Both the position numbers and the translations under genes were made by a program. A stretch of DNA of 39,041 nt from a bacterium (lineage in GTDB: Bacteria; Patescibacteriota; Minisyncoccia; Sungbacterales; HO2-52-23), in the NCBI GenBank assembly GCA_030697525.1, contig JAUYPW010000011.1, positions 1 to 39,041 of the forward strand, read 5' to 3'. Shown one piece after another: positions 10,349 through 33,057 of the stretch. Every line of letters starts with the position of its first letter. Within the stretch, counting starts at the first letter, position 1. The notes beneath the pieces are model-generated. The model had not been told where the DNA came from. It searched no databases and saw only the letters and a list, made by a program, of their open reading frames with translations.

Positions 10349-11782
10349 TTATTTCGGTCTCATGGTCGGAAACAATAAAACCTCTTTTATATTTTTTGTG
10401 TCCGTCAAAAACATCACCAGCCGGTCTATGCCGATGCCAAGCCCCGCCGCCGGCGGCATACCGTATTCTAAAGCTTCTATAAAATCTTCATCCACTCTGT
10501 GCGCCTCTTCTTCTCCTCCGGCCCTCTCTTTTTCCTGTCCCTCAAATCTTTTCCTTTGCTCTATCGGATCATTTAATTCAGAAAAGGCGTTGGCCAATTC
10601 CAAACCGCTAACTATCAGCTGGAATCTTCTCACTTCTTCTTTATTATCCGATTTTTGTTTGGCCAAAGGAGAAATCTCTATGGGATGATCTGTGATAAAA
10701 GTCGGCTGCAACAAATGAGGCCGGCATATTTTTTTATATATTTCATCGGCGATCTTGCCCTTAGATTCTTGTTTGCCGATATCTATGCCCAGTTGTTTCG
10801 CTCTGGTCGCCAGGGTATCTCTTGTTTCCTTGTCATAATCCATTATTTGAGCGTGACGTTTAAGAACTTCTTTGAAAGCAAGACGCGCAAAGGGTTTTTT
10901 ATAATTCTCTTTCTTTCCAACCGCCTCAACTAATTGCAAAAACATATCTTCCGTAAAGCTCATCATTGCCCGCTCGTCCCAAAAAGCCGCGTAGCATTCA
11001 AGCATGGTAAACTCTGGATTATGTTGAGGACTTATGCCCTCATTTCGAAAATTGCGGCCTATTTCATAAACTCGTTCAAATCCTCCCACCAGCAGTCTTT
11101 TTAAATAAAGTTCAGGGGCAACTCGCAAATATAGATCCATATCCAAGGCGTTGTGGTGCGTAACAAATGGTCGGGCTATAGCCCCTCCCGGCACCGGATG
11201 CAAAAGAGGAGTTTCCACCTCCAAGAAATCATGGGTATCCAAAAATTCACGCAGAGATTTTATTATTTTTGTTCGCAGTTCAAATCTCTCCCGAACACCC
11301 TCGTTCATCAAAAGATCCAAATATCTTTTTCTAAATCTTTCGTCCACATCCTGCAGGCCGTGCCATTTCTCCGGCAAGGGCAGTAAGGTCTTGGAAAGCA
11401 TCCTCCAATTTTTTACCAAAAGTGTTTTTTCCTCCTTTTGGGTTTTAAAAAGGTCTCCGCTTGTTTCTACAAAATCACCCACATCACCAGTCTGCAGAAA
11501 AAAATCGTAAGCTTCGCCAAGCAAATCTTTTTTAAAATATACTTGTATCTTGCCCGTGCCGTCATATAGGTCAATAAAAGTAGATCCGCCGTGTTCTCGG
11601 CGCGCCAAAATCCTGCCAGCCAAAGTTATATATTTTTTAGACTTGGCAAGATAAGCAAACTTCTTTACGGCCTCACTTGCCGAATGAGTACGCTCGGTTT
11701 CGGCCGGATAAGATTCAAAACCCTTGTCTTGTATGATAACTGTTTTTTTAAGCCGCTCGGAGCGGATTTCTTCAAGAGACAT
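10349..11782 (-). CDS. lysS: Lysyl-tRNA synthetase, class II
   Basis: 'VETPLLHPVPGGAIARPFVTHHNALDMDLYLRVAPELYLKRLLVGGFERVYEIGRNFRNEG', 'GLGIGIDRLVMFLTDTKNIKEVLLFPTMRP'. Confidence 0.95.
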   Translation of the reverse strand: MSLEEIRSERLKKTVIIQDKGFESYPAETERTHSASEAVKKFAYLAKSKKYITLAGRILARREHGGSTFIDLYDGTGKIQVYFKKDLLGEAYDFFLQTGDVGDFVETSGDLFKTQKEEKTLLVKNWRMLSKTLLPLPEKWHGLQDVDERFRKRYLDLLMNEGVRERFELRTKIIKSLREFLDTHDFLEVETPLLHPVPGGAIARPFVTHHNALDMDLYLRVAPELYLKRLLVGGFERVYEIGRNFRNEGISPQHNPEFTMLECYAAFWDERAMMSFTEDMFLQLVEAVGKKENYKKPFARLAFKEVLKRHAQIMDYDKETRDTLATRAKQLGIDIGKQESKGKIADEIYKKICRPHLLQPTFITDHPIEISPLAKQKSDNKEEVRRFQLIVSGLELANAFSELNDPIEQRKRFEGQEKERAGGEEEAHRVDEDFIEALEYGMPPAAGLGIGIDRLVMFLTDTKNIKEVLLFPTMRPK

Positions 11783-11862
11783 AATACTGAAATAATAGAA
11801 CTTGTACGGGTGCTTGTAAAGTGATACATTGCAGAAAGATTTTTGACAAAGGAGGTTTAAAG

Positions 11863-13125
11863 ATGTCTCGGAAACCTAATTTAAACCCAAACGAATTTGG
11901 TATTTTAAACCAAAGAGGATTTCTGCCAGCGCCAAGCCCGATCAAGAACTCCATGGAAGCCCACAATGAACTTAGGGTAGCAACTCCCGGCGCCAGAGCA
12001 GCTTTGGACTGGATAGATGAATTGGTTCTTAATCTGCCCAAACTAATCATGGCTGGCAAAGCCAGAACCATGATTAAGAAGGCTTTGGATCAGATATTAT
12101 TTTATAATATGGATTACCACCTACAGAATCTTATCCTGAACGTACAAAGCCATAATATACTTGCCTACCTGATGCGCAGCTTCTCTTTTTTGGGACATGC
12201 CTTGGTGTGGGAAGATCCGGAAAACCCGATGGACCATATCCACGCCGGTCTTGCCGTTCCCTGGCATGCAGTTGCCCAAAGGCTAGGCAGACCCCCAGTG
12301 CTCTCTTACGCAAGTTATGCTTTGGACAACTGGAGAATGATTGAAGAGGGATCAATTGAGATTGGCAATATTGCAATTCTACAAAATTTTTTGGGAGGCA
12401 TAGACGAAGATTGGTTTATTTTGGTCCACGTGGAAATAGAGGCAGAAGCTGGAACTATTCCAAGATCCATAGCCCAAGCGCTTAAGTGTATTGCCAGAAA
12501 AGATGCCATTGGTTTATATGCTAATCTTTGTGACATAGCTAAGGCAGAAAAGCAGATGTACGAGACCCTTCTGCGAATGCCGGAGCACTGCGACCCGCAT
12601 CTTTATTACACTCGTGTTCGCCCGTGGATTCATGGCTGGATAAATCCGGCTCTGCCAAACGGGATGGTATATGAAGGTGTTGAAGAATATGAGGGAAAAC
12701 CCCAGAAATTTCGGGGGGAAACAGGGGCGCAGAGTTCCATAATTCCTCTGCTGGATGCTTTTCTGGAAATAGAACACGCTGACAATAAATTGACCAGCTA
12801 TCTTTTGGAAATGCGTGATTATATGCCGCCCAAGCATAGAAAATTTATAGAAGAAGTGGAAAGATTAGTTAGAGAAGGTTTGTCCGTAAAAAAGTTTATC
12901 CGCGACGATGCTCTTCTTAGTCACAGCCTGCAATCCTGTTACCACTGGCTGGAATTATTTAGAAATAAGCATTTGGAATATGCCGCCACTTACATCCAAA
13001 GACAAAGTCAGCAGAGCAAGTCTAACCCCAGCGAAGTCGGAACCGGCGGAACACCCTTTATGCCCTATCTTAAAGAACATCTGGAAGATACCAAGAAAGC
13101 AAGAAAAGAAGATCCAAAAGTTTAA
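11863..13125 (+). CDS. Indoleamine 2,3-dioxygenase-like heme dioxygenase
   Basis: Resembles the IDO family: 'LAVPWHAVAQRLGRPPVLSYASYALDNW', 'MVYEGVEEYEGKPQKFRGETGAQSSIIPLLDAFLEIEH', 'YLLEMRDYMPPKHRKFIEEVE', candidate proximal His in 'NKHLEYAATYI', C-terminal 'GTGGTPFMPYLK'. AAAGGAGG RBS before ATG 11863. Confidence 0.85.
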   Translation: MSRKPNLNPNEFGILNQRGFLPAPSPIKNSMEAHNELRVATPGARAALDWIDELVLNLPKLIMAGKARTMIKKALDQILFYNMDYHLQNLILNVQSHNILAYLMRSFSFLGHALVWEDPENPMDHIHAGLAVPWHAVAQRLGRPPVLSYASYALDNWRMIEEGSIEIGNIAILQNFLGGIDEDWFILVHVEIEAEAGTIPRSIAQALKCIARKDAIGLYANLCDIAKAEKQMYETLLRMPEHCDPHLYYTRVRPWIHGWINPALPNGMVYEGVEEYEGKPQKFRGETGAQSSIIPLLDAFLEIEHADNKLTSYLLEMRDYMPPKHRKFIEEVERLVREGLSVKKFIRDDALLSHSLQSCYHWLELFRNKHLEYAATYIQRQSQQSKSNPSEVGTGGTPFMPYLKEHLEDTKKARKEDPKV

Positions 13126-13128
13126 CCA

Positions 13129-13160
13129 AAAATTCCCCAACATCGGGGAATTTTATATTT
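13129..13160 (+). terminator. Rho-independent terminator
   Basis: AAAATTCCCC-AACAT-CGGGGAATTTT with a T-rich tail. Confidence 0.75.
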
Positions 13161-13191: not shown

Positions 13192-13653
13192 CTACTTTAT
13201 CTCCAAAATTTCGTACATATAAGAACCTGCCGGAGTTTTCACTTCCACCCTGTCTCCAATCGCATGTTCCAGAAAAGCTTTGCCCAGAGGAGATTCGTTG
13301 GATATTTTACTTTCTGCCGGATTAGCCTCGTCGGTCCCTACAATAGTATAGTATTCCTCACCTTTAGCAGATTTTACTTTTACGGTTGACCCGACGTCAA
13401 CCTTGCCGGAGGAAACATCTTTTTTTATGAGCACAGCGTTTCTTACAACTTCTTCTTGTTCGGCGATCTTGGCTTCCACCATGTTTTGCTCTTCTTTGGT
13501 TTCCTGATATTCAGCGTTTTCAGATAAATCACCTAGAGACTTGGCATGTTCTAACCGCTGGGCAATTTCTTTTCTCTTGGTAGTTTTGAGTTCGTTTAAT
13601 TCCTGTTTTAATTTTTCTAAACCTTCTTCGGAGAAATATTGTGCGGACATCAC
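13192..13653 (-). CDS. greA: Transcription elongation factor GreA
   Basis: 'EEGLEKLKQELNELKTTKRKEIAQRLEHAKSLGDLSENAEYQETKEEQNMVEAKI'. Confidence 0.95.
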   Translation of the reverse strand: MMSAQYFSEEGLEKLKQELNELKTTKRKEIAQRLEHAKSLGDLSENAEYQETKEEQNMVEAKIAEQEEVVRNAVLIKKDVSSGKVDVGSTVKVKSAKGEEYYTIVGTDEANPAESKISNESPLGKAFLEHAIGDRVEVKTPAGSYMYEILEIK

Positions 13654-13708: not shown

Positions 13709-15613
13709 TCAAGGCTGCTGGTTTGTGGATAACTTATCTTTTTGAGCAAAGTACCACTTATACAAATCTCTGGCCACCGGTACCGCCGTACGAGCTCCCT
13801 CACCGCCATGTTCTCCCATAGACAATATGACCAGTTCCGGATTATCAACGGGGGCAAAAGTCGCCGCCCAAGAGTGAGGGTTTTTTCCGCCGCTTACCTG
13901 CGCTGTCCCGGTTTTAGAAGCCGTGGGAACAGGAACGGCCTGCAAACCTTTGGAGGTGCCTCTTATCACTGCCTCCCTCATGCCTATTTTAACTTTTTCT
14001 ATATGCGCCAAATCAACCATGTTTTCTCTCACCAAAACCACGGGGTCATCGGCAAGAAGCCGAGGCTTAAACAGCTTGCCGCCATTGGCAATTGCGGCTG
14101 TAGCCATAGCCATTTGTAGAGGCGTAACTCTAAGCCCCCCTTGTCCGATAGAAACATTGTAAGTATCTCCAATCCTCCAAATTGGGTTGGCAGGATCAGT
14201 TTTTTTCTTAGATTCCGGATCCGGCAAAAATCCTTCTTTTTCCCCCGGCAATGTCACTCCTGTTTTGGATCCCAAACCAAAAGCCTGCAGATAACTTTTA
14301 ATTCTATCTATACCCAAACCTTCTTGTTCCTTATATCCCCCGCCGATAATATAAAAATAAACATTGGCTGACAGCGCAACCGCGTCGTAAAAATTTATCC
14401 ACCCATGAGGACGCCAATCTTTAAATATGTGACCCTCGCCCGGACGATACGGATTAGGGATTTCAATAAAACCCTGGTCGTATATCTTTTTTTCTGGGTC
14501 TATTAATTTCTCCTGCAAAGCCGCCACAGCTGTGAATGGCTTAATAATGGACCCCGAAGGAAATTCTCCGGCAATAGCCCGATTAAATAGAGGCTTCAGG
14601 GGATCGTTGATTATTTTTTCAAATTCTTTTTGGGAAATATTGTAACCTAATTCGTTGCTATTAAATCCTGGAAAACTTACCAAAGCTTTTATAGAACCGT
14701 CTCTCGGATCTAAAGCAATTACACTGCCGCCACTTTTCCCTCCAGTATAATGTTTCAGTAAATCATAAGCTAATTTCTGCATTTCCCCATCAATAGTGAG
14801 CTTCATTGAAGACCCCTCCTCTGGGTCTTCAATGAATTTAAACCTTGTCTCTCGGCCGCGGGCATCAATCTCCACCAGTCGTCGCCCCACGCTACCCCTA
14901 AGCTTGCTATCGTACTGCGCCTCAATTCCGGACTTACCCACAAACAAATCTTTTTTGGTAAACTGCTCTTTTTGGAGATCTTCCTGGGAAATTTTACCCA
15001 CAAATCCAAGCAAATGGGAAAAAGCTTGAGGATTTTTGTAGATACGGCGAGACCCTTCAATTATCTCAATACCCGGGAGTGAATCCAGCTTGCTTGCGAT
15101 AGTTACCAAATCTTCCAAAGGTATATTCTGGGGCATAAACACCTTGGAGGGAGTTTTTTTAAGATCGTAATTATAAGGAAAACCTAAATCAAAAAAATAA
15201 TCTTTTTTAACTTTAAGCAGCTCGCCCAGTTGATCAAGCAAACCGGCCAGATCTTTGGATTTAGCTGAAAATCTATCTTTGCTGAAGACCAGCCCCCAGG
15301 AAGGAACATTTTCAACCATAGGGCGGTTTTTTTCATCATAAATCACACCCCTGGGAGAAAAAACGGGTCTTATGAGAAATCTGTTTTCCTGTGATCTATT
15401 GTAAAGGGTCTCGCCCTTAGCCACTTGAAGTGTGGAGGATTCCCAAATAAGATATCCAAACCCCAAGGCTATCAAAAACAAAAATAAAAAAGAGGGTGCC
15501 CGGCTTATGGAGCGTTCCAGTTTTCCCTCCGTGTCAAAAGGTGAATTCAGATGACTAAAGGAATCAGCCAATATTTCATCCGGATCCAATAAGTTATGAT
15601 TTTTTATTTTCAT
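13709..15613 (-). CDS. mrdA: Penicillin-binding protein 2 (transpeptidase)
   Basis: 'FPSGSIIKPFTAVAAL' SxxK, 'SANVYFYIIGGG' SxN, 'SKTGTAQVSGGKNPHSW' KTGT; adjacent to mreD. Confidence 0.9.
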   Translation of the reverse strand: MKIKNHNLLDPDEILADSFSHLNSPFDTEGKLERSISRAPSFLFLFLIALGFGYLIWESSTLQVAKGETLYNRSQENRFLIRPVFSPRGVIYDEKNRPMVENVPSWGLVFSKDRFSAKSKDLAGLLDQLGELLKVKKDYFFDLGFPYNYDLKKTPSKVFMPQNIPLEDLVTIASKLDSLPGIEIIEGSRRIYKNPQAFSHLLGFVGKISQEDLQKEQFTKKDLFVGKSGIEAQYDSKLRGSVGRRLVEIDARGRETRFKFIEDPEEGSSMKLTIDGEMQKLAYDLLKHYTGGKSGGSVIALDPRDGSIKALVSFPGFNSNELGYNISQKEFEKIINDPLKPLFNRAIAGEFPSGSIIKPFTAVAALQEKLIDPEKKIYDQGFIEIPNPYRPGEGHIFKDWRPHGWINFYDAVALSANVYFYIIGGGYKEQEGLGIDRIKSYLQAFGLGSKTGVTLPGEKEGFLPDPESKKKTDPANPIWRIGDTYNVSIGQGGLRVTPLQMAMATAAIANGGKLFKPRLLADDPVVLVRENMVDLAHIEKVKIGMREAVIRGTSKGLQAVPVPTASKTGTAQVSGGKNPHSWAATFAPVDNPELVILSMGEHGGEGARTAVPVARDLYKWYFAQKDKLSTNQQP

Positions 15614-26861: not shown

Positions 26862-27731
26862 TTAGATAATTTTATGTTCTGCTTTTGTTCTTTCTTCAAC
26901 TTTTTTTAACTCCTCCAAAAACTTTTTGGCCTCATCCGGTTTGGGAGGCTTGCCATGCCACAGAAAATCAAACTCAATTTCTTTAACTCCTTTGCCGGGA
27001 ATGGTGTGCGCCATAATTAAAGTCGGTTTTTCATAAATATTTTTAGACTCCTCCACCGCATCCACAAATTCACGAATGTTGTTGCCGTCTATTTCAATCA
27101 CATGCCAGCCAAAAGATTTGTATTTATCAGCCAAAGGTTCAAGCGGCATTATGTCCTCGGTCATGCCGTCTATCTGAATGTTGTTTCGATCAATCACTCC
27201 GATTAAATTATTCAGTCTGTATTTGGAGGCAAACATAGCCGCTTCCCAAGTATTGCCGGCCTGCTGTTCGGCATCCGACATCAAACAAAAAACTCGTAAA
27301 GTTTTTTTATCCATTTTAGCGCCATAAGCCATACCTGCGGCCTGACTCAAGCCGGAGCCCAAAGGACCCGAGGTAGTCTCAATTCCGGGAAGCCTTTCTC
27401 TTTCCGGGTGTCCTTGCAGACGCGAGCCGAATTTCCGCAAAGTTTTTAATTCTTCAATCGGAAAATACCCAGACATGGCCATCACTACATATCTTATGGG
27501 GGTTATGTGCCCGTTGGATAAAATAAGTCTGTCTCTTTCGGGTAAGTCCGGATTTTTAGGGTCGTGATTTAAAATATGAAAATAAAGAGCGGTAAAAATA
27601 TCCGCCATGCCCAGAGGCCCCGCGGTATGCCCTGATCCGGCCTCCACCAGCATTTCAATCAAAAGCTGACGAGCCTGATTGGCTTTCAATTCCAATTCTT
27701 TTAATTTTTCGTCGTGAATAGTGTGACTCAT
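26862..27731 (-). CDS. Transketolase, N-terminal (TPP-binding) subunit
   Basis: 'EAGSGHTAGPLGMADIFTALYFHILNHDP...RDRLILSNGH', 'GDSN-like ...IGVIDRNNIQIDG'. Confidence 0.92.
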   Translation of the reverse strand: MSHTIHDEKLKELELKANQARQLLIEMLVEAGSGHTAGPLGMADIFTALYFHILNHDPKNPDLPERDRLILSNGHITPIRYVVMAMSGYFPIEELKTLRKFGSRLQGHPERERLPGIETTSGPLGSGLSQAAGMAYGAKMDKKTLRVFCLMSDAEQQAGNTWEAAMFASKYRLNNLIGVIDRNNIQIDGMTEDIMPLEPLADKYKSFGWHVIEIDGNNIREFVDAVEESKNIYEKPTLIMAHTIPGKGVKEIEFDFLWHGKPPKPDEAKKFLEELKKVEERTKAEHKII

Positions 27732-28675
27732 TTGTTTTGTAGTAAATAGGCATAAGCGGATAAGGCAGCTTTTACTCCATCACCCATGGAAATATTATTT
27801 TGTTTAAACGGATCATCCGTTACATCCCCCGCGGCAAAAATTCCTGGGTAACTGGTGGTGGCGTATTTGGAATCAATTTTTACCTGCCCCCATTTATCCA
27901 ATTCTACCAAGTATTTTGCCATTTCAGAATTTGGCACAGAGCCTATTTCTATAAAAACACCTTCTACTTTTAACTCTTTTTCCTCCCCGCTTAAACGGTT
28001 TTTATAAATCAAACCGGTTACAAATTTATCCCCGTTTACTCTGACAGTTTCTGTATTAAAAATAATTTCTTTCAGCTTGGGATTTTTCTTAATTTCTTCT
28101 TGAGTTATCGGATCGCCCTTAAGCTTTTCGGAGTATTCCAGCAGGTATATTTCCTCCGCGTAAGGAAAAAGATCCTGCACGGCTTCAAGCCCCGCGTTTC
28201 CCCCACCCACTACCGCCACTTTTTTTTCTGCAAAAAGAGGCGCGTCACAGGTGGAACAATAAGCCACGCCTTTGCCGTCAAACTCTTTTTCACCAGGTAT
28301 ACCTAACTTTCTGCGCCTGGCTCCAGCGGTTAGAATTATAGTTTTTCCCTCGTATTTATTACCCTTGTCGCTGATCACCTCAAAAATACAGTTTTGTTTG
28401 TCGGGTTGACAGTTTAAAGTTTTAATACCAACCGCCAGTTCAGGAGCTTTTATATCTACATCTGTAGGAAAATTACGTACATGATCTTCCATTTTTTTAG
28501 CCAAATCAAAACCAGAGATGTGTTTTTCCCCGATCCAGTTCTGCACATCGTCTGATACAATAGACTGCCCTCCGAAAGATTCGGTGATTAGTAAAGTCTT
28601 TAACTTCTTGCGGGCAGTATATACCGTAGCCGCACACCCCGCCGGCCCACCGCCGATTATGATCACGTCGTACAT
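27728..28675 (-). CDS. trxB: Thioredoxin reductase
   Basis: 'DVIIIGGGPAGCAATVYTARKKLKTLLI', 'VAYCSTCDAPLF' CxxC, 'VAVVGGGNAGLEA', 'GIFAAGDVTD'. Confidence 0.9.
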   Translation of the reverse strand: MYDVIIIGGGPAGCAATVYTARKKLKTLLITESFGGQSIVSDDVQNWIGEKHISGFDLAKKMEDHVRNFPTDVDIKAPELAVGIKTLNCQPDKQNCIFEVISDKGNKYEGKTIILTAGARRRKLGIPGEKEFDGKGVAYCSTCDAPLFAEKKVAVVGGGNAGLEAVQDLFPYAEEIYLLEYSEKLKGDPITQEEIKKNPKLKEIIFNTETVRVNGDKFVTGLIYKNRLSGEEKELKVEGVFIEIGSVPNSEMAKYLVELDKWGQVKIDSKYATTSYPGIFAAGDVTDDPFKQNNISMGDGVKAALSAYAYLLQNK

Positions 28676-28698
28676 ATATATAATTTACCACCCGCGCA

Positions 28699-29658
28699 TC
28701 AAGCTATCAATCCTTTAAATTTCTCTACCATGGGAACTTGTTCCGGATCAAGGCCGTACTCGCCCGCCAAATAAAAAGATACCCAGTCGGACAAGATAAG
28801 AGAGGAAAATATTTTATGAAAATGGTTCTGTCCGGATAGTCTTATTTTCTCCACCTTAAGTCTTTTTTGAACAAAAAGATCAGCCATTACACTCATTCTT
28901 TTTTGTACCCGAGGGTGGTCGTATGAGTCCTCCAGAAACAGAAAATAAAATTTTTCAGAAAGCGTAGGAATTTCAAAACTGTTTATCTCGTTGTGATTCA
29001 TCTCCGGTATTACGTTGCAAAAAGCCGGTGCTTTGGCATTTTCATTTATTTTAGTTTTCCAATTATAGGCCACCGCCCACTTTTTAGCAGAAGAATAAAT
29101 AACCAGTATCTTTCCTTTTGCTTTTTCAGCTAAATTTTTGCCGAGATCCTCAAATTCTCCCGAACTTAAACTTTGAGATAAGCCCTCTGCTTCAGCAAAA
29201 AGTTTGTCATCCCCAATTAATTTTACCAAAGCCATAAAGCTCAAGCCAAGAGCCGATCTTGGCTGTAAATCCCAGTCGGGAAGCTGTATAAGGGGCAGTT
29301 TGTTCTCTCTGGCAATTTCCAGAAGTTTTCCGCCAACCGCGATACAAGCAACGGCAAGCCTTTTTTCCAAAGCCGTGTTTAGACTGTCTATAACTTCTTC
29401 CGTGTTTCCGGAGTAGGAACTTGCCACCACCAAAGATTTAGACAAAATCTCCTCCGGCACATTTGGCAGGCCGTAATCCATGTGGACAAATATCTTGGAT
29501 TCGTATTCTGGTAAAGTTCTCAAAATATCTGCCGCCAAATGCGACCCTCCCATGCCGCAAATTATAAAATAGGAAAAACCACCCAGTTGATCTTTGTTTT
29601 CTACAATCGGCTGATAAGTAAACTGCTTTGGAAAATTTTTTATGGAATCTATGAACAA
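28699..29658 (-). CDS. Bifunctional phosphoglucose/phosphomannose isomerase-like (SIS domain)
   Basis: 'FIICGMGGSHLAADILR', 'VVASSYSGNTEEVIDSLNTAL', 'EMNHNEINSFE'. Confidence 0.82.
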   Translation of the reverse strand: MFIDSIKNFPKQFTYQPIVENKDQLGGFSYFIICGMGGSHLAADILRTLPEYESKIFVHMDYGLPNVPEEILSKSLVVASSYSGNTEEVIDSLNTALEKRLAVACIAVGGKLLEIARENKLPLIQLPDWDLQPRSALGLSFMALVKLIGDDKLFAEAEGLSQSLSSGEFEDLGKNLAEKAKGKILVIYSSAKKWAVAYNWKTKINENAKAPAFCNVIPEMNHNEINSFEIPTLSEKFYFLFLEDSYDHPRVQKRMSVMADLFVQKRLKVEKIRLSGQNHFHKIFSSLILSDWVSFYLAGEYGLDPEQVPMVEKFKGLIA

Positions 29659-29660
29659 AG

Positions 29661-30785
29661 TTAGGATTTTGCGCTTAGAATTTTCTTTTTAGCTATTTCC
29701 ATCGCCACTTCTCTCGGGTTTTTATTGTACCGCATACTTTTCTCCAAAACCACCTTTGTTGTTTTGGTAATTTTTTCCTCCACCAGTTTAAACATTTTCT
29801 CTGCAGAATATCCTTTGTATTCGGCATAAGAAGAAATAACTCCTCCGGCATTAGCCACAAAATCCGGCACAATCAAAACATCTTTTTTAAAAAGCTCTTT
29901 TTCAATTTCCTCCCCCATGGGGATATTTGCCCCTTCCACAATTATCTTAAATTTCAGATCTTTTTTATTACTATCATTTATTACATCCGTAACCGAAGCT
30001 GGTATCAAAATATCAGCCTTAATTTTCCAAAAATCCTCCGGCCTTATATGCTGTTTGGCTGGATAATCCTTCAGGCATAGATCCTTTTTAATTATTTTGT
30101 CTATTATTTTATCGTCCAATCCGTTTGGATCAAAAACACTGGCCGTAGAGTCGGCCAGCGCAATAATCCGTACTCCTGTACCTCGCAAAAACTTATAAGC
30201 AAAACTGCCGACATTACCAAATCCGTGGATAATGGCCGTGGTTTTTTTAATATCTAAGCCGGCCACACGGATAGCCACCAAAGTAGACTGCGCTACCCCG
30301 AAACCAGTGCTTCCCATCTCGTGAGGAATACCGCCGGAGCAACACATCTTCCCCGAATCTTTATTAAAACACAAGCTTTTCGGCTTGCCGGTAGCCGAAT
30401 TGCACTTACCCGTAGCTTCCACAAACCAACTCATTTCTTTTTCACCGGTATTTATATCCGGCGCAGTTATATATTTTTTAGGAGTTAGCGGCTCCAGCGC
30501 GCGGGCAAAAGCCTGAACATATTTTTTTTTGAGAGTATCCGGTCCTCCGGGCCATATTATCCCGCCCTTTCCTCCCCCAAAAGGAACGTCCGCCAAAGCA
30601 TTTTTCCAAGTCATGGTACGCGCCAGCCTAAAAACTTCGTCTTCAGTCACATTTTTGGTCATCCTGAATCCTCCTTTCCCGGGACCTAAAACAGTATTAT
30701 CAATAACCAAAAACCCCCTCATTTCTGTTTGGGGGTCGTAAACTCTCAAAATATATTCCGGACCAAATTCGTCGTAAGAAATCAT
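29661..30785 (-). CDS. Glu/Leu/Phe/Val dehydrogenase (glutamate dehydrogenase-like)
   Basis: 'GPGKGGFRMTKNVTEDEVFRLARTMTWKNALADVPFGGGKGGI', 'IHGFGNVGSFAYKFL', 'VPDFVANAGGVISSYAEY'. Confidence 0.9.
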   Translation of the reverse strand: MISYDEFGPEYILRVYDPQTEMRGFLVIDNTVLGPGKGGFRMTKNVTEDEVFRLARTMTWKNALADVPFGGGKGGIIWPGGPDTLKKKYVQAFARALEPLTPKKYITAPDINTGEKEMSWFVEATGKCNSATGKPKSLCFNKDSGKMCCSGGIPHEMGSTGFGVAQSTLVAIRVAGLDIKKTTAIIHGFGNVGSFAYKFLRGTGVRIIALADSTASVFDPNGLDDKIIDKIIKKDLCLKDYPAKQHIRPEDFWKIKADILIPASVTDVINDSNKKDLKFKIIVEGANIPMGEEIEKELFKKDVLIVPDFVANAGGVISSYAEYKGYSAEKMFKLVEEKITKTTKVVLEKSMRYNKNPREVAMEIAKKKILSAKS

Positions 30786-30795
30786 GGCTAGAAAC

Positions 30796-31032
30796 TTATG
30801 GCAGGTTTAAAACTTTCTTAAGTTCCGGTTCATCGAAACCGATTATGACCTTGCCGTCTATATCAATCACCGGCACACCCATTTGCCCAGATTTCTGGAT
30901 CATCTCGTCTCTGGCGTTGGCGTCTTTGGCCACATCCAGTTCTTCATACTCAACATTATTCTTCTTAAAAAACTCTTTGGCCATCTTGCAGTAAACACAA
31001 GTAGTGGTTGTATAGATTTTAACCTTAGCCAT
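30796..31032 (-). CDS. Glutaredoxin
   Basis: 'VKIYTTTTCVYCKMAKEFFKKNNVEYEELDV', 'GQMGVPVIDIDGKVIIGFDE'. Confidence 0.92.
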   Translation of the reverse strand: MAKVKIYTTTTCVYCKMAKEFFKKNNVEYEELDVAKDANARDEMIQKSGQMGVPVIDIDGKVIIGFDEPELKKVLNLP

Positions 31033-31037
31033 AAAAA

Positions 31038-31805
31038 TTATTTTTTTATATTTTCTAACTCTTCCTCAATTATCGTCTTAAATCCCGGCATCATTTCATT
31101 CCCTTGAGGATAGTCTTCGTATGGTATGGCGCCGGTTACTAGGCGTCCATTTACAAAAGTTGCCGGAGTCCCGGTTACTCCAAAACTTTGACCGCTTTGC
31201 AAATCTTTACCAACTTCGGTGGCATATTTGCCGGAATCTAGACAATTATTAAATTTATTTGTATCCAAACTAAGTTCCGTGGCCCATTTTTTATAATTGT
31301 TCAGAGATAACTTATCCTGGCGGTTGTAAAGTAAATCATGATAAGCCCAGAATTTACCCTGCTCATCCGCGCATTCGGAAGCCTCCGCCGATTTTTGCGC
31401 TTCCGCGTGAATTGAGCTTAAAGGAAAGTCTCGGTAAATAAGTTTTGCTTTTCCGGTTTTTATATAATTTTCAATCACCTGCTGTTCTGTGGTCTGGAAA
31501 AACCTTTGGCAGAAAGGACACTGGAAATCTCCAAATTCCACGATAGTAAGTTTGGCATCTGGACTACCAAGCACCGGATCATCGTCTGCCAACAAATTCA
31601 TATCTTTCACGGGATCAATAGCTTTCCCACTAGCGGCGAGTCCTTTTTTACCAGCAACCGTCTCTCCTTGCGGCTTATTTATAAAAATAATCGCTCCGGC
31701 GATAATTATGCCGGCCAATAAAATAGAGCCGGCAATCACCATGTTCGGATTACCGCCTGATTCATTCTTAGATGCCGAATTTGAAGTTAATATATCTTCT
31801 TCCAT
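31038..31805 (-). CDS. DsbA-like thioredoxin-domain protein, membrane anchored
   Basis: N-terminal TM; 'LTIVEFGDFQCPFCQRFFQTTEQQVIENY', 'FGVTGTPATFVNGRLVTG'. Confidence 0.9.
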   Translation of the reverse strand: MEEDILTSNSASKNESGGNPNMVIAGSILLAGIIIAGAIIFINKPQGETVAGKKGLAASGKAIDPVKDMNLLADDDPVLGSPDAKLTIVEFGDFQCPFCQRFFQTTEQQVIENYIKTGKAKLIYRDFPLSSIHAEAQKSAEASECADEQGKFWAYHDLLYNRQDKLSLNNYKKWATELSLDTNKFNNCLDSGKYATEVGKDLQSGQSFGVTGTPATFVNGRLVTGAIPYEDYPQGNEMMPGFKTIIEEELENIKK

Positions 31806-31818
31806 AATTTTTCTATAT

Positions 31819-33057
31819 CTACTCTACCATCGAGATATCCTTCAAGTCAAAATCAAAACTTGTTAGTCTATCTTTATATAAATCTAACTTGGTTTTACTC
31901 TCTATTAGTTTCGTAAGTAGGATTTTGTCTTTAAAACAATTTATCAAAACAGCCCCCACCAAAACCCCCTGCCGCAAGAAAAATCTCTCATAAAGATGCT
32001 GATACATATCATAACGAACGACACTGTCTATTCCCTCTTTTTCTCCACAATCTCCAAGAGCCGTTATCTGAAATCCCAGGTTGGTTATGGAGTAGGCTGA
32101 AACCGCCCGGAAAGCTTCTTTAGAACCCATCATGTTTAAGCCCGCTTTTTGCCCCTGCAAAAAAGAATTGGTCCAGTTACCCACAGATCTAGGCCTTTCT
32201 AAGATGACATCATAAAATTCGGCCACGTCTCCCGCCGCCCAGATATTTTTTTGATTGGTTTCTAAAAATTCATTAACCCGTATCCCCGCCTTACTTGATT
32301 CTATCTTTGTTCCAGCCAAAAATTCCAGATTTTTGTCCAAGCCTATACCCACAGCAACAGCATCGGCCTCTAAATTATGCCCCAGACGAGTTACTGCACC
32401 GATTTCCCCAGTTGCCAGCATACTCATAGATTCAACCGCGTCTCCGGTAAGTATTTTTATGCCATGCCTCTCGAAATTTCTATGAAGAATCTCGCCACCA
32501 TTTTTCTCTACTAATTTGCAAAAGAAAAATGGCCTATCAAGCAAAAGAGTTGGAGAGATGTTGTTAAGGGTAAAAACCTCTAAAAATTCAAGGCCGATAA
32601 AAGAACCCCCGATAACGATTGGTTTTTTTATTTTAGACAGATCGATCTTTAATCTGTCTGTATCTTCAATGGTCTGCAGACGATACACCAGAGACTGAAC
32701 ACCGTTTTCCCCCCAAGGTTTTACTTTGCCACCGCTTGATATTAGAAGCTTCTCATACCCCAATCTTGTACCGTTTTCCAAAGTAACTGTTTGTTTTTCT
32801 GTATCTATGCCGGCAACTTTCTGATCAAGTCTCAAATCTATATTCTTCTCATAAAAATCCCTCTGGGCGCGCAGAAAAAGCTGTTCTCTTTTTATTTTGT
32901 TTTTTAAATAATGAGGAAGAAGAACCCGGGAATAGAGAAGATAAGGCTCCTCGCCTATTATACCGATTGTTGCCCTGGTATCTGCTTTACGTATAGTTTC
33001 TGCCGCCGTGACCCCGGTAATTCCCCCTCCGATTATAAGATATTGATAACTGTTCAT
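31819..33057 (-). CDS. NAD(P)/FAD-dependent oxidoreductase
   Basis: 'YLIIGGGITGVTAAETIRKAD', second Rossmann 'PIVIGGSFIGLEFLEV', 'NIWAAGDVAEF'. Confidence 0.88.
   Translation of the reverse strand: MNSYQYLIIGGGITGVTAAETIRKADTRATIGIIGEEPYLLYSRVLLPHYLKNKIKREQLFLRAQRDFYEKNIDLRLDQKVAGIDTEKQTVTLENGTRLGYEKLLISSGGKVKPWGENGVQSLVYRLQTIEDTDRLKIDLSKIKKPIVIGGSFIGLEFLEVFTLNNISPTLLLDRPFFFCKLVEKNGGEILHRNFERHGIKILTGDAVESMSMLATGEIGAVTRLGHNLEADAVAVGIGLDKNLEFLAGTKIESSKAGIRVNEFLETNQKNIWAAGDVAEFYDVILERPRSVGNWTNSFLQGQKAGLNMMGSKEAFRAVSAYSITNLGFQITALGDCGEKEGIDSVVRYDMYQHLYERFFLRQGVLVGAVLINCFKDKILLTKLIESKTKLDLYKDRLTSFDFDLKDISMVE

Follow-up and report, generated by a model that had tools for sequence, protein, structure and literature searches.

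Indoleamine 2,3-dioxygenases (IDOs) fall into three branches, and effective degradation of tryptophan is reported for only one of them, that of mammals, fungi, Gemmatimonas, and S. scabiei (PMC4217691). The IDOs of Erythrobacter and Neptuniibacter, together with fungal IDO-gamma, are reported to be very slow on tryptophan (PMC4217691). The IDO described here is 45-51% identical to bacterial IDOs with His at the position of human S167 (H167-type IDOs of Nitrospira, Fimbriimonadales, Bacteroidia, and Nanopelagicales; L033-L111). It has the same pocket residues as these enzymes, which do not usually adjoin kynurenine genes. Their hosts are mostly larger-genome members of other phyla, whereas the host here has a reduced genome without ferrochelatase and TrpA. 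Haloarchaeal IDOs (Haladaptatus, Natronococcus; 31-32% identity) also have His at 167, but they sit with a kynureninase and an alpha/beta hydrolase, and the genome here has neither. Human IDO1 and IDO2 (24-28% identity) share the fold, the proximal His, R231, Y126, F163, and the GTGGT loop; human S167, F226, S263, and A264 are replaced by His, Tyr, Thr, and Gly.

Patescibacteria are usually characterised as non-respiring fermenters with numerous auxotrophies (PMC7507113). For 587 CPR genomes, a 2025 survey of enzymes that use O2 lists kynurenine 3-monooxygenase and, in its main text, does not list IDO (PMC12577380). Our text searches of the literature returned no report of IDO in CPR or Parcubacteria, which is not proof, as subscription journals lay outside them. 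The gene presented here extends a known family to new hosts.

The window, meaning the whole stretch of DNA analysed (39,041 nucleotides), is an entire contig. It belongs to a genome of 746 kb in 36 contigs, estimated at 93% completeness and 0.06% contamination. This size and purity bear out the initial annotation, which had recognised a CPR-type genome. The features around the gene are as follows.

10349-11782, minus strand: lysS, left flank of the IDO insertion site, with LysS homologues in the order.
11850-11855, plus strand: Shine-Dalgarno sequence AGGAGG, 7 nt before the IDO ATG, read directly from the sequence.
11863-13125, plus strand: IDO-family gene (P0001), 420 amino acids, assigned by its PF01231 match, AlphaFold2 model, and PDB fold match.
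12427-12429, plus strand: codon of His189 (human S167) in the distal pocket; His throughout the bacterial and CPR members of the first tree set.
12619-12621, plus strand: codon of Arg253 (human R231), the substrate carboxylate residue, invariant.
12970-12972, plus strand: codon of His370, the proximal heme ligand (human H346), invariant in 89/89 bacterial and CPR sequences.
13039-13053, plus strand: GTGGT loop, residues 393-397, with Thr394 equivalent to human T379 in the alignment with human IDO1.
13129-13154, plus strand: predicted intrinsic-terminator-like stem-loop 3' of the IDO gene, with a 10-bp stem and a T-run, from a pattern scan.
13192-13653, minus strand: greA, right flank of the IDO insertion site (PF01272/PF03449).
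13709-15613, minus strand: pbp2, conserved beside greA in the order-wide gene order.

The IDO gene is thus alone on the plus strand, and its neighbours lysS and greA are both on the minus strand.

The open reading frame encodes a full-length, apparently intact member of the IDO family. Pfam profile PF01231 (IDO) aligns to residues 10-413 and is covered from position 3 to position 412 of 412 (E-value 3.4e-76; score 257 bits, cut-off 26), which is far beyond chance. No other family, and in particular no TDO family, is matched in the Pfam search; TDO likewise has a distal His. By sequence, the closest solved structures are IDO2 and human IDO1. A confident AlphaFold2 model (pLDDT 89.9, pTM 0.90) has the same fold: all listed top PDB matches in Foldseek are IDO2 or human IDO1, with a TM-score of about 0.90 normalised by IDO1. 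The initial annotation had identified the protein as IDO-like from hallmark motifs; all of these are found in it, and both the profile search and the structure prediction agree with that identification.

The heme and substrate residues of human IDO1 are retained. We find the proximal heme ligand H370 (human H346) with its supporting residues R367 (R343) and D298 (D274), and the substrate residues Y149 (Y126), F185 (F163), R253 (R231), and T394 of the GTGGT motif (T379). The human reference sequence in this alignment agrees in its middle part with the chain of a database structure. The equivalents of Y126, F163, R231, H346, and T379 are invariant in all 89 sequences compared, of which 15 are from CPR and 74 are IDOs from other bacteria. 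Those of D274 and R343 are lost in some CPR members, and the window protein keeps both. The histidine previously singled out as a candidate heme ligand is therefore the equivalent of human H346, and none of the ligand or substrate residues whose loss would have spoken against an IDO is missing. At four pocket positions the window protein departs from human IDO1 (S167 to H189, F226 to Y248, S263 to T287, and A264 to G288). These His, Tyr, Thr, and Gly states are fixed or nearly so in the same 74 and 15 sequences.

The window IDO is phylogenetically distinct from animal-type IDOs. It lies on the opposite side of a branch with 100/99 support from human IDO1 and the animal-like actinomycete IDOs. 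Two IDOs from large-genome actinomycetes (L203, L204) keep the animal-like T, F, S, and A and group with human IDO1; the window IDO neither groups there nor has S/T167, F226, S263, or A264, the marks of the Trp-efficient animal-type branch. The sequences in the tree do not include the IDOs of Gemmatimonas, S. scabiei, Erythrobacter, or Neptuniibacter, or fungal IDO-gamma; they do include a Sphingobium IDO. Sphingobium and Erythrobacter belong to the same order. Because the Sphingobium enzyme has the H167 pocket and shares the window IDO's side of the tree, we infer that the window enzyme lies on the poorly characterised side of the family, outside the animal-like branch. Four long actinomycete proteins (L211-L214; 677-809 amino acids or more) match the IDO profile in its N-terminal half only (positions 9-216) and are possible IDO-domain fusions.

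This placement bears on the substrate. L-Trp is the likeliest substrate of the window IDO. It is no more than a candidate, given that the enzyme sits in the H167 branch and that very low rates on Trp are reported for those characterised bacterial IDOs that are not animal-like (PMC4217691). Hence, of the proposal that this is an enzyme of tryptophan breakdown, family membership stands, and Trp as the true substrate does not yet follow. Nevertheless, an H167 pocket is consistent with a role on the path from Trp to kynurenine, since haloarchaeal IDOs with His at 167 adjoin kynU and an alpha/beta hydrolase gene, and the S167H variant of human IDO1 has been crystallised with Trp bound (PDB 6cxu).

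Neither cofactor synthesis nor a downstream pathway accompanies the enzyme. Ferrochelatase was found in 0/16 IDO-bearing genomes of the class, including the window's own, with positive controls, and TrpA likewise in 0/16 (controls 14/14). The expectation that heme and tryptophan biosynthesis would be lacking is therefore upheld. No kynureninase over the cut-off occurs in these 16 genomes. A Cyclase-type formamidase is present in three of the 16, and neither this enzyme nor a kynureninase was found in the window's own genome; at 93% completeness, single absences could be gaps. Homologues of the haloarchaeal KynU and its neighbouring alpha/beta hydrolase were also not found among the open reading frames of this genome. 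We reject a kynurenine or NAD operon: partner genes are missing at this locus, and no kynurenine gene recurs beside IDO at the loci of other bacteria. Respiratory use of heme is likewise rejected: a heme-copper oxidase occurs in 5/387 genomes sampled from the class, and none of these five carries IDO.

IDO is common in free-living bacteria. Only 5 of the 28 free-living carriers sampled have a kynureninase over the cut-off, so a stand-alone IDO is usual there too and is not unique to CPR.

Two minor observations concern these searches. The Cyclase-family proteins (kynurenine formamidase type; L193, L194, and L195, from G514, G400, and G422) occur only with divergent IDOs, in 3/7 such genomes against 0/9 others, which are small numbers. 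One genome of the class (G622; L198 and L201) has a heme-copper oxidase subunit I with seven to eight in-frame TGA codons, reflecting either TGA recoding or a foreign bin.

We consider it probable that the window gene encodes a bacterial-type IDO heme dioxygenase that acts alone. Imported heme would be bound by His370, and an indoleamine, most likely L-Trp, would be held by Arg253, Tyr149, Phe185, and the GTGGT loop (Thr394). O2 would then bind, and both of its atoms would be inserted across the indole C2-C3 bond. As the cell makes neither heme nor Trp, both would have to be imported, perhaps from a host, neighbours, or necromass. With Trp as substrate the product would be N-formylkynurenine; whatever is formed would not be channelled into NAD or anthranilate, because formamidase and kynureninase are missing. 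The lone enzyme could thus consume O2 and indole compounds or shift a Trp/kynurenine pool shared with a partner cell.

The reading just given overlaps with its strongest rival, as the chemistry is shared. In that rival, an IDO-fold heme dioxygenase marked by H167, Y226, T263, and G264 acts on another indole or aromatic, such as indole itself, a Trp derivative, or a signal or antibiotic of the partner. We regard this as a real but lesser possibility. The four pocket positions differ from the animal type in nearly all bacterial and CPR members, and the slowness of characterised non-animal-like IDOs on Trp (PMC4217691) points in the same direction, as does the scarcity of kynureninase (none over the cut-off in 16/16 CPR genomes, and few in free-living carriers). 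The wider IDO/TDO superfamily can take other substrates, as in PrnB-type chemistry. However, the residues that hold an amino-acid carboxylate and amine (R231 and T379 equivalents) are invariant, and haloarchaeal H167 IDOs sit with kynU. Slightly less likely still, and offered tentatively, is a broader proposal: that stand-alone IDO-fold dioxygenases in heme- and Trp-auxotrophic Patescibacteria act on chemistry shared with a partner that also supplies heme, and that the whole H167 branch is an IDO class apart from the kynurenine pathway, with a distinct physiological reaction. Such an enzyme might lower the partner's Trp, release formylkynurenine, or remove O2 or toxic indole. No neighbouring gene points to a cellular role, and a role in host interaction is speculation.

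IDO genes are patchily distributed among relatives. PF01231 is found in 4/23 genomes of the order and in 16/387 of the class, one of the 16 being a shortened copy below the cut-off. Among 384 genomes sampled phylum-wide, only the window's own has it; the phylum and class samples differ in make-up (1/384 against 16/387). Loci in other genomes were found with an alignment-based scan; a single-protein query gave no match. The gene is thus not restricted to this genome. Several class members carry it on long contigs, and three copies (L017, L018, L019) are on contigs of 3.6-7.2 kb, for which binning is uncertain.

Some relatives retain IDO at a fixed locus. Gene names at these loci are readings of the sequences unless a Pfam match is given. 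Two members of one genus (L021, L023) have IDO in the same dprA-murC slot, at 63% identity. Their pN of 0.24 against a pS of 0.75 resembles that of neighbouring genes and supports constraint, although synonymous sites are saturated and the ratio gives no rate. Position is also kept in L027 and L028 (beside truB) and in L026 and L030 (a shared region), where divergent IDOs still have H346, R231, and T379. This retention bears on a second rival, in which the protein has no dioxygenase role: it would instead stay heme-free or sense heme, or be a relic that has drifted since its transfer. A heme-free state is possible for human IDO1, ferrochelatase is absent from these genomes, and D274 and R343 equivalents are lost in some CPR members, though not in the window protein. 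We nevertheless judge this rival improbable, given that related species retain IDO at the same locus under constraint and that the window gene is full-length and intact, with a good ribosome site and with every heme and substrate position retained.

In the tree, where bootstrap support is not settled, the nine clear CPR IDOs are spread over roughly four places. A single origin is weakly rejected (AU p 0.026), which makes several transfers into the class from other bacteria likely, though not certain. Carriage by phage was not seen: a search of 50,697 phage records gave no match. The IDO-bearing Patescibacteria make neither heme nor Trp, yet they have kept a dioxygenase that depends on heme and O2 and was probably gained more than once; this implies heme import and exposure to O2. 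The window IDO is a defined, expressible enzyme with which to probe how these cells use O2 and a partner's Trp, and it allows the function of most bacterial IDOs to be approached in a cell with a small genome.

The locus itself is native to the lineage. The order pbp2-greA-lysS is conserved across the taxonomic order, and only the window genome has IDO between greA and lysS. The gene greA is conserved in 22/23 genomes, and LysS homologues 44-63% identical lie near it in most members whose stretch extends to that point. Roughly 70-130 bp separate greA from lysS in G392, G394, and G395, which are relatives, against 1.4 kb with IDO here. In other members (loci L170, L172, L174, L179), the gap contains different, unrelated open reading frames, a recurrent insertion spot. 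The site is thus a loose one for lineage-specific genes, and we reject greA-lysS as an IDO module. The GC content of the IDO gene (44.3%) fits both the genome (42.5%) and the neighbouring genes. With these conserved flanks, we conclude that the gene is resident and arrived long enough ago for its composition to adapt; it would have been gained by horizontal transfer and inserted here between greA and lysS. Bin contamination by a contig or gene from a free-living aerobe is refuted by this synteny on both flanks and is exceedingly improbable: the highest identity of the window IDO is to free-living bacteria (about 50%), but its GC fits the genome and IDO occurs in 16/387 genomes of the class, in several of them on a contig of 33-175 kb.

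Other neighbourhoods show further associations. Two genomes of the class, both from one family (L026:9405-14796 and L030:6078-11271), have a divergent IDO beside genes for alanine dehydrogenase, proline dehydrogenase, and an aldehyde dehydrogenase, which together look like an island of amino-acid catabolism. In G631 (L022:203-3243), the genes directly upstream of IDO encode a multiheme c-type cytochrome and a 669-amino-acid protein without a Pfam match; such a cytochrome is unexpected in the class and was possibly transferred or is part of a contig chimera. Within the window, minus-strand genes at 26865-33057 encode a transketolase half, a thioredoxin-reductase-like protein, a SIS-domain isomerase, a Glu/Leu/Phe/Val dehydrogenase, a DsbA-like thioredoxin, and an NADH-oxidase-like Pyr_redox_2/Rubredoxin_C protein, a cluster that hints at O2 and amino-acid metabolism.
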